Origin: Leucobacter sp. CX169
GTDB taxonomy: Bacteria; Actinomycetota; Actinomycetes; Actinomycetales; Microbacteriaceae
Length of the DNA stretch: 64,000 nt
Assembly (NCBI RefSeq): GCF_017161405.1
Contig: NZ_CP071051.1
Coordinates: forward strand, 2,852,001-2,916,000
Reading direction: 5' to 3'
This document shows, in pieces, positions 1,732 to 22,348 of the stretch (positions within the stretch are counted from its first letter, which is position 1; the number at the start of each line of letters is the position of its first letter). Under the pieces are notes generated by a model. That model searched no databases. It saw nothing but the letters and a program-made list of their open reading frames with translations, and was not told where the DNA came from. Position numbers and translations under genes: made by a program.

Positions 1732-2679
1732 CTACCCGCGGGCCCGTGCGAGGAGATCCTCGCGCGGGTTGTCCTGCGGTTCGACTTCCCGGAACGTCTC
1801 GAGCGCCGCCTTCGCGTCGTCCGAGAGGTGCGCCGGAACGACGACCTGGACCTCAGCGAGCAAGTCGCCGGTGCCCTTGGCGGATTTGATGCCGCGCCCC
1901 TTGACGCGCAGCACGCGGCCGCTCGGGGTGCCCGGCTGCACTTTCAGCTTCACCGGGGGGCCGCCCAGTGTGGGGACCTCAACGGTCGCGCCCAGCGCGG
2001 CCTCGACGAACGTCACCGGCAGCGTGAGCCGCAAGTTCAGCCCGTCGCGTTCGAACACGGGGTGCTTTCGAACATTCACGGTCAGGATCAGGTTCCCTGC
2101 CGGTCCGCCGTTCGGGCTTTGCTGCCCGCGCCCGCGCACCTTGATTTTTTGGCCGTCCGAGACGCCAGCAGGAATCTTCACCTTGACGGTGCTCCCATCC
2201 GGGGTCTGCAGCGTGACGGTGTTCCCGGCCGCCGCAGTCTCGAAGTCGAGCGTGGTCGAGGCGGTGATATCGCGCCCGGGCTGGGGGCCGCGGGCACGCC
2301 CGCCACCCCCGCCGAACATGCTGAAGATATCTTCGTAGCTCTGGCCGCCGCCCTGCTGGTAGGAACCAGCCTGGCCGCCGCCAAACATACCGCCGAAGAC
2401 GTCCTCGAAGCCCTGACCGCCCTGCGTGAAGCGGGCGTGGCCCGGTCCCATCGATCGCATCTGGTCGTACTCAGCGCGCTGCTCCGTGTCAGAGAGCACC
2501 GAGTAGGCCTCGCTGATCTCCTTGAACTTCGCCTCGGCTTTCGCATCGCCCGAGTTGGAATCGGGGTGGTAGGTGCGCGCCAGCTTCCGATAGGTCTTCT
2601 TCAGCTCGGCCTCGCTGACGTCCTTTGAGACGCCAAGAATTCCGTAGAAGTCCTTCTCGAACCAGTCTTGACTAGCCAT
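1732..2679 (-). CDS. dnaJ: DnaJ-family co-chaperone without zinc finger
   Basis: 315-residue J-domain protein. The J domain (about 1-72) has the HPD triad at 38-40, followed by a Gly/Phe-rich linker (about 78-130) and the two-part substrate-binding C-terminal region (about 135-300). The CXXCXGXG zinc repeats of class A DnaJ are absent and I see no cysteines at all, so this is a class B/CbpA-like protein in the classical dnaJ position. It stimulates DnaK ATPase and delivers substrates. The start is ATG at 2679, overlapping the grpE stop by 8 bases; the frame stays open far upstream of that but only inside grpE. Confidence 0.93.
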   Translation of the reverse strand: MASQDWFEKDFYGILGVSKDVSEAELKKTYRKLARTYHPDSNSGDAKAEAKFKEISEAYSVLSDTEQRAEYDQMRSMGPGHARFTQGGQGFEDVFGGMFGGGQAGSYQQGGGQSYEDIFSMFGGGGGRARGPQPGRDITASTTLDFETAAAGNTVTLQTPDGSTVKVKIPAGVSDGQKIKVRGRGQQSPNGGPAGNLILTVNVRKHPVFERDGLNLRLTLPVTFVEAALGATVEVPTLGGPPVKLKVQPGTPSGRVLRVKGRGIKSAKGTGDLLAEVQVVVPAHLSDDAKAALETFREVEPQDNPREDLLARARG

Positions 2680-3289
2680 CTGCCCCCACCGCCACCGCCA
2701 CCTTCGCGGCGCGCAACTCGACACCGCCAATCCGGTATCCCCGCTCAACGACGTCGAGCACCGTGTGCGCCTCGGTCCCGGGAACCGGAACCTGGGCGAT
2801 CGCCTCGTGCAGTGCGGGGTCAAAGAGGTCGCCGACCTGTCCGAAGCTCTCGAGCCCGAAGCGCTCGAGGCTGCCGCGCAGCTTCTGCGCGATCGCGTGG
2901 AAGGGGGTGCCCTCCACGAGGTCGCCATGGGCGTCGGCCCGGTCCAGATCGTCCAGCACGCCAAGCAGCGGGGTGAGCACGGCCGCGGTCGCCCGCTGCT
3001 GCTCAATCACTCGATTCTCCTCGGTGCGCTTGCGGTAGTTTGCGTACTCGGCATTGACGCGACGCAGGTCCTCGAGGTACTCGTTCGCGACGTCGGTGGC
3101 CTCAGCGGGGGAATCGCCATCCTCCGCCGAACGCGCGTCGTCGTTCTGCTCCTGGCCGAGGATGTCCTCGACCGTCAGATCCGCGTCGCCCTCCGCCTGC
3201 GGCGCAGGGCCGGAGGTTGCACCCTCCGGCCCTGCCGCGGCGGGAACCTCGTCGCCCATGCCGGGCGTGCGCTGTTCCTCATTCGCCAT
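2672..3289 (-). CDS. grpE: GrpE nucleotide exchange factor
   Basis: 205 residues. A disordered acidic N-terminus (about 1-65) precedes the long dimerisation helix (NAEYANYRKRTEENR region) and the C-terminal beta domain with the family pattern DPALHEAIAQVP...GYRIG. It exchanges ADP for ATP on DnaK. The start ATG lies two bases after the dnaK stop and its end overlaps dnaJ, so translation of the three chaperone genes is tightly coupled. Confidence 0.96.
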   Translation of the reverse strand: MANEEQRTPGMGDEVPAAAGPEGATSGPAPQAEGDADLTVEDILGQEQNDDARSAEDGDSPAEATDVANEYLEDLRRVNAEYANYRKRTEENRVIEQQRATAAVLTPLLGVLDDLDRADAHGDLVEGTPFHAIAQKLRGSLERFGLESFGQVGDLFDPALHEAIAQVPVPGTEAHTVLDVVERGYRIGGVELRAAKVAVAVGADG

Positions 3290-20129: not shown

Positions 20130-21578
20130 CTACCCGACGTGCGCCAACACCGGCGCCTCGTTCTGCGGCAGGAGCTCCGATTTGGGCACGCGAATCAGCA
20201 CTGCCGCGATGATCGACGCGAGCACCATTGCAACGGCGGCCGTCACGAAGATCGCTGAGTAACCCTCGGCGAAGGCATCGAGCAACGCGTTCCCGCGAAG
20301 CCCCGCCGTGGGCCCCGCGACCTGGACATAGACCGCGGTGAACACGGAGACACCGATCGATCCACCGATCTGCATGGCTGAGTTCGCGGTCGCCGATGCG
20401 GCTCCAGCGTCGTGCGCGGCGACGCCGCTCAGCGCGAGGTTCTGCAGGGGAACGAAGATGAAGCCCATGCCGAGCCCCATCACTACGAGCGCGGGCAGCA
20501 CCTGCACGAAGTAGTTTCCGTCGGCGGTGATTTGGCTGAGGTAGCCAAGCCCCACCGCCGCGAGCAGCGGACCGCCAATCATCATGAGCCGGGGTCCGAC
20601 TGCCGTGAGCATCTTCGTGGCGATCGGCGCGACGACCATGATGGCGAGGGTCAAGGGCAAGCTCGCGAGCCCGGCCTGGAAGGGCGCCATTCCCAGCACG
20701 ATCTGGAGGTGGAAGGCCAGATAGAGCGTGGCACCAATCATCACGCTGCCGGTGACGGCCTGAATGAGCAACGCACCGCCGCGCACGCGGTTGGCAAGGA
20801 TCCGCAGGGGAAGCAGGGGCTCCGCAACCTTCGTCTCGATCCACACAAACAGCGCGAGCAGCAAGATACCCGCAGCCAGGAACCCGACCGTTTCGGGCGC
20901 GCCCCAGCCATGCTCGGCGAGGCTAAAGCCGTACACCAGCGACCCAAGCCCGAGCGTCACCGTGATCGCGCCCCACACGTCGTAGCGGTTGTTTCCTTCG
21001 GCCTTGCTCTCCGTCAGGAAGAAGGCCCCGCCGATCATGCCGACAGCAACGAAGAACACGTTGACCAAGAGGCACCAGCGCCAGTCGGCGAATTCGGTGA
21101 GCAGGCCGCCCAGGAGCAGTCCGACTGCCGCGCCGGCGCCGGCGATAATGCCAAATACCGCGAACGCCGTGTTCCGGTCCTTCCCCCGCGGGAAGGCCAC
21201 CGTCAGCAGCGCGAGCGCAGCCGGCGCGAGCAGCGCAGCAAAGATTCCCTGCAGGCCTCGCGCAAGAATGAGTTCGGCGCCGGATCCTGCCAGGCCGCCG
21301 TACACCGACGCCAGGCCGAAACCGATCATGCCCACCATGAAGGCGCGCTTGCGACCCCAGTAGTCAGCGACTCTGCCGCCGAGCAGCAGCAACGCCCCGA
21401 ACGCGAGCGCGTAGGCAGTGACGACCCATTGCCGTTGGCTGTCCGAGAGATCCAACTCTAGCTGGGCCTGCGGCAGCGCAATGTTGACGATCGTGCCGTC
21501 GAGCACGACGACGAGTTGCGTCAGCGAGAGCACGGCCAGCGCCCACCAACGATTGGGTGAGCGTCGGGAAATAGACAT
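20130..21578 (-). CDS. DHA2-family (14-helix) MFS drug exporter
   Basis: 482 residues, 14 membrane segments. Motif D1 LDGTIVNIALPQ lies near 26-37 and motif A GGRVADYWGRKR near 66-77, with a central GQ/GP-rich motif C helix, as in EmrB/QacA-type pumps. It exports hydrophobic drugs using the proton gradient; substrate unknown. The ATG at 21578 follows TCCCGGAGG. The ribosome-binding site lies in the 3' arm of a perfect hairpin, suggesting translational attenuation. An in-frame GTG at 21659 would add 27 residues or could encode a leader peptide read-through. Confidence 0.87.
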   Translation of the reverse strand: MSISRRSPNRWWALAVLSLTQLVVVLDGTIVNIALPQAQLELDLSDSQRQWVVTAYALAFGALLLLGGRVADYWGRKRAFMVGMIGFGLASVYGGLAGSGAELILARGLQGIFAALLAPAALALLTVAFPRGKDRNTAFAVFGIIAGAGAAVGLLLGGLLTEFADWRWCLLVNVFFVAVGMIGGAFFLTESKAEGNNRYDVWGAITVTLGLGSLVYGFSLAEHGWGAPETVGFLAAGILLLALFVWIETKVAEPLLPLRILANRVRGGALLIQAVTGSVMIGATLYLAFHLQIVLGMAPFQAGLASLPLTLAIMVVAPIATKMLTAVGPRLMMIGGPLLAAVGLGYLSQITADGNYFVQVLPALVVMGLGMGFIFVPLQNLALSGVAAHDAGAASATANSAMQIGGSIGVSVFTAVYVQVAGPTAGLRGNALLDAFAEGYSAIFVTAAVAMVLASIIAAVLIRVPKSELLPQNEAPVLAHVG

Positions 21579-21585
21579 AAAAAAG

Positions 21586-21625
21586 ACCTCCGGGATCTCT
21601 GTGAGTGCCGGAGGTTTCAAGCCTC
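21586..21625 (-). promoter_or_regulatory. Possible translational attenuator of the DHA2 pump
   Basis: Reading the transcript, ACCTCCGG (21615-21608) can pair perfectly with CCGGAGGT (21593-21586), which contains the pump's ribosome-binding site. Just upstream GAGG (21625-21622) can pair with CCTC (21614-21611), the same bases. The two hairpins exclude each other, the usual anti-sequester/sequester arrangement. Inference from sequence only. Confidence 0.5.
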
Positions 21626-21730
21626 GGACCGATGTCGCTTTCGCGCTGCTCGACCACACCGGCCGTTGGGCCAGTCAGATCTCTAGGTTACCAAAGGCGA
21701 TCATTGGGGCGGGCTGGGAGCCCTCGCCGC

Positions 21731-21736
21731 TAGAAT
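21731..21736 (+). promoter_or_regulatory. -10 hexamer for leaderless dcd mRNA
   Basis: TAGAAT, then six bases, then the GTG start of dcd at 21743. Predicted start of transcription coincides with the start codon. Confidence 0.55.
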
Positions 21737-21742
21737 CGACAC

Positions 21743-22348
21743 GTGCTGCTTTCAGATCGTGACCTCAATGCTGAACTCGCCTCCGGCCGGATCCGTCTGG
21801 ATCCCTCGTCCGACGACATGGTCCAGCCGTCGAGCATCGACGTGCGTATTGACCGCTACTTCCGTCTCTTCGACAACCACAAGTACCCCGTGATCGATCC
21901 GGCAGAGGACCAGCCCGAACTCACGCGCCTCATCGAGGTTGACCCCGCGGAGGGCTTCATCCTGCACCCGGGCGAGTTCGTCCTCGGTTCGACGTTCGAA
22001 CAGGTCACCCTGCCCGACGACATCGCGGCCCGCCTCGAGGGAAAGAGCTCACTCGGCCGACTCGGCCTCATGACGCACTCAACCGCCGGCTTCATTGACC
22101 CCGGCTTCACGGGTCACGTCACGCTCGAGCTCTCGAACGTCGCGACGCTGCCGATTCGCCTGTGGCCCGGAATGAAGATCGGGCAGCTGTGCTTCTTCCA
22201 GCTCAGCTCACCCGCCGACCACCCGTACGGCTCGGGCGAGTACAAGTCGCGCTACCTCGGGCAGCGCGGCCCCACCGCCTCGCGCTCGTTCGTGAACTTC
22301 CACCGCAGCGACGTCACTGCGACCGACGCGGGCGCAAACGGCGGCTAG
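21743..22348 (+). CDS. dcd: dCTP deaminase
   Basis: 201 residues. The family signature [23 protein letters not shown] is seen across residues 96-119, with the catalytic Glu in TLELSN near 128-133. It deaminates dCTP to dUTP. Actinobacterial forms are often bifunctional and also release pyrophosphate to give dUMP; I cannot tell which applies here. No ribosome-binding site precedes the GTG, in agreement with a leaderless mRNA. Confidence 0.95.

Follow-up and report, generated by a model that had tools for sequence, protein, structure and literature searches.

A conserved leader RNA with two exclusive folds before actinobacterial drug pump genes, a candidate translational riboswitch

Few riboswitches are known that respond to toxic compounds and govern drug pumps, and the ligands of such RNAs tend to point to cell chemistry not known before. 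In the actinobacterium Leucobacter sp. CX169, the gene of a drug efflux pump is preceded by a hairpin in which its ribosome-binding site is hidden, which raises the question of whether the leader of this mRNA is a switch and, if it is, what operates it. The locus lies on the minus strand of a stretch of 64,000 nucleotides (contig NZ_CP071051.1, positions 2,852,001 to 2,916,000), referred to here as the window, whose numbering is used throughout. A preliminary description, made from the sequence alone, had read the leader as a device of antibiotic-induced translational attenuation, governed by a leader peptide. By comparing the upstream DNA of related pump genes, searching genomes for further copies of the leader and examining its alternative folds, we propose a different sensor, the RNA itself.

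The pump leader and its conserved core

The pump gene (20130-21578, minus; 482 amino acids, ATG at 21578) encodes an efflux transporter of the MFS type that belongs to the DHA2 family of drug pumps, since the MFS_1 and EmrB-subfamily models (PF07690 and TIGR00711) both score above their cut-offs; its best-matching solved chains are EfpA and an antiseptic resistance protein. Just upstream, on the same strand, ACCTCCGG (21615-21608) and CCGGAGGT (21593-21586) form a perfect stem of 8 pairs around a 14-base loop. The Shine-Dalgarno (SD) sequence GGAGG (21591-21587, minus), 8 bases 5' of the ATG, is buried in this stem just as the preliminary description stated, and a run of six T (21584-21579, minus) follows it. 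Further upstream, GAGG (21625-21622) is able to pair with CCTC (21614-21611); because these CCTC bases are used by the SD-hiding stem as well, the two folds are mutually exclusive, a second point on which that description was borne out. In the window alone the stem is mildly unusual (a perfect stem of at least 8 pairs arises in 11 of 300 dinucleotide shuffles, and the folding z-score of the leader is -1.96); the comparison among relatives settles the question, and we therefore accept the hairpin as real. It forms the last part of a larger element, which runs from about 21678 to 21579 on the minus strand.

The comparison drew on the upstream DNA of the best 80 of 106 pump relatives found in genome contigs. 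The leader starts with a conserved RNA structure, in which three covarying helices (P1, P2 and P3) precede the SD-hiding hairpin (P4, 21615-21586). The first three make up an aptamer-like core (21678-21610, minus), recognised by covariation, by mutual information and by a score of 69.3 bits with R1, a covariance model of the part before P4 that has 69 positions and 52 rows (the window and 51 of the 80 loci). P1 (21675-21658) is a hairpin of ACTGGCC (21675-21669) with GGCCGGT (21664-21658), and all seven of its pairs have changed on both sides among relatives. P2 (21655-21626), traced by alignment covariation and RNAalifold, joins GG (21655-21654) to CC (21627-21626) and U21653 to G21629, and continues past a bulged U (21628) with the pair C21652-G21630 and a variable stem; its paired U faces G or A across relatives. 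P3 (21625-21611), the fold proposed to free the SD, consists of the GAGG and CCTC named above and the loop CTTGAAA. One of its four pairs varies on both sides in a free MAFFT alignment (A-U to G-C), and two do so in an alignment fitted to the model. The loop reads CTNGAAA in 84 elements and CTGAAAA in 8, together 92 of 94, and the conserved letters left unpaired are this CUNGAAA loop, the bulged U and a G in the P1-P2 linker.

The free alignment, of 52 rows, 51 of them distinct (the window and 51 loci), has a covariation score of 0.423, against 0.205 when shuffled and at most 0.102 in slid registers. The corresponding values for the final alignment, of 102 rows and 94 distinct, are 0.468, 0.193 and at most 0.087, with 93.6% of cells paired; this alignment is favoured by having been fitted to the model, and the shuffles ignore relatedness. 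RNAalifold recovers P1-P3 from the free alignment and omits P4, which P3 excludes. Modelled pairs account for 10 of the top 13 by corrected mutual information, and the mutual information of the element alignment gives no hint of a pseudoknot or of further tertiary pairs. Covariation of the stems, on which the earlier reading depended, is strong for P1-P3 in the relatives' alignments and modest for P4, in which three of the eight pairs have changed on both sides (11 cells) and the number of pair types is not above that of shuffles (5 against 5.1). The leader thus has one general mark of a riboswitch, a conserved and structured 5' untranslated region with covariation.

A second such mark is location in a transcribed leader, and here it is the sequence of the promoter that speaks for it. 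Counted from base 1 of the element, the -10 box TAACCT (21690-21685, minus) lies at -12 to -7. TANNNT begins at -20 to -8 in 88 of the 94 elements (shuffled mean 8.0, s.d. 2.5), most commonly at -12 (53 elements) and next at -13 (21); the position profile of the elements contains no conserved -35 sequence. By the usual -10 rule, transcription of the pump gene would start at the CUG before P1, and the mRNA should then contain the element in full. A start downstream of the 5' arm, which would have spoiled the idea of a switch, is accordingly made unlikely in most relatives, whose -10 box places the predicted start at base 1 of the element. A dCTP deaminase gene adjoins the pump gene in divergent orientation, with about 65 bases from the predicted pump transcription start to its start codon (21678-21743).

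Genes downstream of the element and the divergent TetR

R1 matches 64 of the 80 pump loci at E 2e-5 or better (51 in the model and 13 outside it), matches three weakly (L060, L070 and L079) and finds nothing at 13. The loci that bear the element include members of Microbacteriaceae, Streptomyces, Cellulomonadaceae, Promicromonosporaceae, Beutenbergiaceae, Nakamurella and Rhodococcus. The window's own genome holds a single match, that of the pump leader, the next score being 23.4 bits. A second model, R2, found 48 elements in 45 of 299 Microbacteriaceae genomes; nearly all the sequences behind it are pump leaders, a number of the same species, and it leans towards such leaders. Pumps at least 57% identical to that of the window follow 43 of the 48 elements, and a second DHA2 pump, 47% identical, follows two (L144 and L154). 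Two more (L143 and L153) precede a protein that weakly resembles antibiotic biosynthesis monooxygenases (ABM), with a match below the cut-off in one (E 0.0088) and none in the other, and no NCBIfam match for the protein of L143. The remaining element (L121) precedes a pentapeptide-repeat protein (Pfam, above cut-off), whose matches to the Qnr and MfpA models fall far below their cut-offs; pentapeptide-repeat proteins are a broad kind that includes gyrase protectors. An SDR oxidoreductase is preceded by the element in two lineages, Curtobacterium (L038 and L074) and another family of the order (L112).

The weakly ABM-like protein has 256 amino acids in both copies (2246-3013 minus in L143, 2231-2998 minus in L153), and its frame apparently starts at CTG or GTG. 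In L038 and L074 two RNA copies stand back to back (1236-1292 minus and 1363-1430 plus), with the pump on one side and the SDR gene on the other, and the paired copies differ in platform. In L112 (1501-3059) the RNA is followed by the SDR gene and then by a YceI-like gene.

Searches within single genera found the pentapeptide association in one of three genomes, and elements in two of seven genomes of the ABM-bearing genus, the new one before a pump. The cases away from the main pump are few: SDR in two lineages, the pentapeptide-repeat protein in one genome, and the ABM-like protein and second pump in one genus each. Copies of this RNA are spread through many Actinobacteria; most stand before drug pumps, and a few before other genes that are likely to be protective.

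Pump genes that lack the RNA tend to have a divergent TetR gene instead. With a TetR profile made from four of the loci and upstream flanks of up to 1500 bases, such a gene was found at 10 of the 13 loci without RNA (four being the seeds of the profile) and at all three loci with a weak remnant, that is, at 13 of 16 loci without clear RNA against 2 of the 64 with it (L047 and L065). TetR-like matches also occur upstream on the other strand at two further RNA loci (L015 and L009), and a few flanks are shorter (157 bases in L021), where a TetR gene could be missed. Counted by locus, the exclusion has a Fisher p of 1.7e-10; the pump tree implies about four changes of RNA state and offers only three independent supported pairs (sign test p 0.5), for which reason the association is suggestive and not proved. 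The data suggest that pump genes carry either the RNA or a divergent TetR, and rarely both. In one supported pump clade, Rathayibacter and its near kin, the RNA weakens by grades alongside the divergent TetR: RNA alone in L024, RNA with TetR in L047, weakened RNA with TetR in L065, a faint remnant with TetR in L060, L070 and L079, and TetR alone in L067 and L077.

Alternative folds and the control of translation

The competition between P3 and P4 seen in the window recurs among its relatives. Of the 94 elements, 56 have a contiguous helix of at least six Watson-Crick pairs between the 3' arm of P3 and a G-rich SD; when the downstream DNA is shuffled, the mean is 1.4 elements and the maximum 5. 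By this strict test the SD-hiding helix is missing in 38 copies. Another competitor of P3, directed against its 5' arm and loop, is present in 10 of the 94, counted without a shuffle control and exemplified by GGGGCUGGA with UCCAGCCCC before the Curtobacterium SDR gene; 28 elements have neither. A less specific test, for any duplex competing with P3, gives p at or below 0.05 against shuffled DNA in 39 of 94, and p 0.08 for the window. In the copies without the SD-hiding helix, the expression platforms vary or have no recognised form; differing platforms around a conserved core are expected of a riboswitch aptamer, but 28 of the 94 copies show no platform of either kind.

Fold predictions covered 91 of the 94 elements, with the start codon chosen automatically and doubtful for a few (L024, L069 and L112). 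When P3 is forced, the SD has a median unpaired probability of 0.42 instead of 0.14, and the median energy penalty is 6.3 kcal/mol; the window's own values are 0.15 without and 0.49 with the constraint, for 8.2 kcal/mol. Exposure of the SD increases in 70 of the 91 elements, by more than 0.3 in 36, and does not increase in 21. Shuffling the stretch from core to SD leaves the SD largely buried (median 0.23, compared with 0.14), in a control that keeps most of both P4 arms; much of the hiding therefore comes from the SD pairing with CCUCC of the core itself.

We consider it probable that the leader represents an undescribed class of translational ON riboswitch for a toxic compound. The proposal builds on features read from the sequences, namely the structure, the exclusion of one fold by the other in the window and in 56 of the 94 elements, the position of the promoter, the gene associations and the scarcity of TetR; what we infer is that a small molecule binds the RNA directly, that it turns expression on, and what sort of compound it is. 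P1, P2 and P3 would fold into a small aptamer. With no ligand present, the more stable P4 would capture the 3' strand of P3 and keep the SD hidden; a toxic compound, which is probably exported by the pump or related to what it exports, would bind the P1-P3 core and hold P3, so that GGAGG would be freed and the pump made. Of the switchable architecture first described before this drug pump, the two exclusive folds stand, and their stems covary, but control by a leader peptide is not supported; putative induction of the pump by antibiotics through the leader is plausible.

The same RNA could instead be the site at which a protein or a small RNA stabilises P3 or P4, an explanation that we regard as unlikely although it is the strongest of the rivals. 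A protein might recognise the conserved letters of its loop and bulge, and one element shared by several genes is what a common regulator would also produce. However, the element tends to occupy the place that a TetR repressor has in other relatives, the genes behind it resemble protection against a compound, and in the window and 16 relatives it matches no protein-bound leader of Rfam 15.

Less likely again is transcription attenuation, with P4 and the T run as an intrinsic terminator and P3 as the antiterminator. The six T directly after P4 in the window fit such a scheme, as do at least 5 T within 8 bases in 32 of 70 SD tails, but the other 38 tails have fewer, and the SD itself lies inside the stem, 6-8 bases from the start codon in 50 of the 52 pattern-fitting elements (of 94). 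A terminator scan reported no site at P4, but its loop limit of 8 excludes the 14-base loop of this hairpin. Judging by its letters, the T run could add some transcription termination to the translational switch that we prefer.

We give very little credence to an RNA thermometer, or to a constitutive leader that merely lowers translation of the pump. Either would suit an SD that the predicted fold keeps paired for the most part (unpaired probability below 0.3 in 66 of 91), but neither accounts for the P1-P3 core, conserved although it lies far upstream, or for copies that have a different platform and have yet kept the core.

Least probable of all is ErmC-like translational attenuation by a ribosome stalled on a leader peptide, as first suggested from the GTG at 21659: its frame is indeed open through the element, and a GTG stands in the P1-P2 linker of 46 of the 94, but the other 48 have none there, and in the window the frame runs without a stop into the pump (an ORF of 509 amino acids) and would make an N-terminal extension, not a separate leader. 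No short upstream ORF with its own stop is conserved among the 94 leaders (closed ORFs of at least 3 codons occur in 35 and share neither frame nor sequence), and the lengths of the elements are spread evenly modulo 3 (27/32/35).

Relation to known RNAs and wider occurrence

At the gathering score, no family of Rfam 15 matches the element in the window or 16 relatives, and neither RF01764 (the yjdF riboswitch) nor the guanidine families, among which ykkC-III (RF01763) is today's guanidine-III, are matched. When E values up to 5 were allowed for the window and L033, each gave one below-threshold match, CRISPR-DR9 and snoZ248, which we take as chance. In attenuators of the Erm type, alternative hairpins hide or free the SD of a resistance gene, as proposed here, but they use a leader peptide, for which this element offers no support. 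TetR-controlled DHA2 pumps of the QacA/QacR type belong to the same pump family and are likely inducible, as this one may be, but they sense through a DNA-binding protein, whereas the proposed sensor here is the mRNA leader. Another close parallel is the yjdF (azaaromatic) riboswitch, whose ribosome-binding site is predicted to be freed on binding of toxic aromatic compounds. That riboswitch also alternates with a protein, PadR being described in PMC4793209 as taking its place, as TetR appears to do here. Unlike this element, it is tied almost only to yjdF and is listed from Firmicutes in PMC2864571; ykkC-III is listed there from Actinobacteria, in which this element also occurs. Guanidine riboswitches activate exporters, according to PMC7736828. 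The motifs named in the parts seen of PMC11109978, PMC8632094 and PMC2864571 are others than this one, and the titles and opening lines of the literature matches listed do not describe the element; an earlier mention is possible, for example in supplementary files.

More tentatively, and with slightly less than even confidence, we suggest that a single new class of RNA sensor for a toxic natural product is spread across Actinobacteria, where it would switch on unrelated means of protection (export, reduction by an SDR, a weakly monooxygenase-like protein and a pentapeptide-repeat protein), and that it replaced TetR in the pump lineage, TetR having returned in Rathayibacter, whose pump leaders retain RNA remnants beside TetR. 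The direction of these exchanges is a guess, the tree being unrooted, as is the thought, prompted by the gene set, that the sensed compound is aromatic or resembles a gyrase poison. If the suggestion is true, an mRNA and a repressor protein would be seen exchanging one sensing job. A model of 69 positions, a predicted 5' end, a switch that can be seen in the sequence and the range of gene families behind it narrow the search for the ligand.

In wider samples the element was found in 11 of 396 genomes drawn from the phylum, with a cut-off of E 0.01 (three strong, eight at 32 bits or less), in 11 of 394 of the class and 12 of 396 of the order at 1e-4, and, with a third model (R3) at 5e-4, in 6 of 256 (among them L159, set aside) and 12 of 233 genomes, all these samples overlapping; a small family search added only the known L112, in one of 12 genomes. 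Searches of more than 40 genomes scored only 12-22 candidates per genome, so that a missing match is no proof of absence. Matches away from pumps that scored at most 35.3 bits (L083-L086, L089-L096 and L159) were set aside, the elements described here scoring at least 39 bits; L065 (33.9 bits) and the Rathayibacter remnants (18.7-24.3 bits) were kept solely for their place before a pump.

A core-pattern match in a virus (L113) is taken as chance, as it lies antisense inside a long phage ORF and no downstream ORF of more than 80 amino acids was found. Spread by phages or plasmids was considered and rejected, the searches giving no match or short partial ones at E 0.8-0.9; plasmid-borne relatives of the pump are all less than 60% identical. 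One locus, L002, comes from a record named Planococcus (Bacillota), and its pump groups with those of Microbacteriaceae in the tree; the record may be mislabelled, or the gene may have been transferred.
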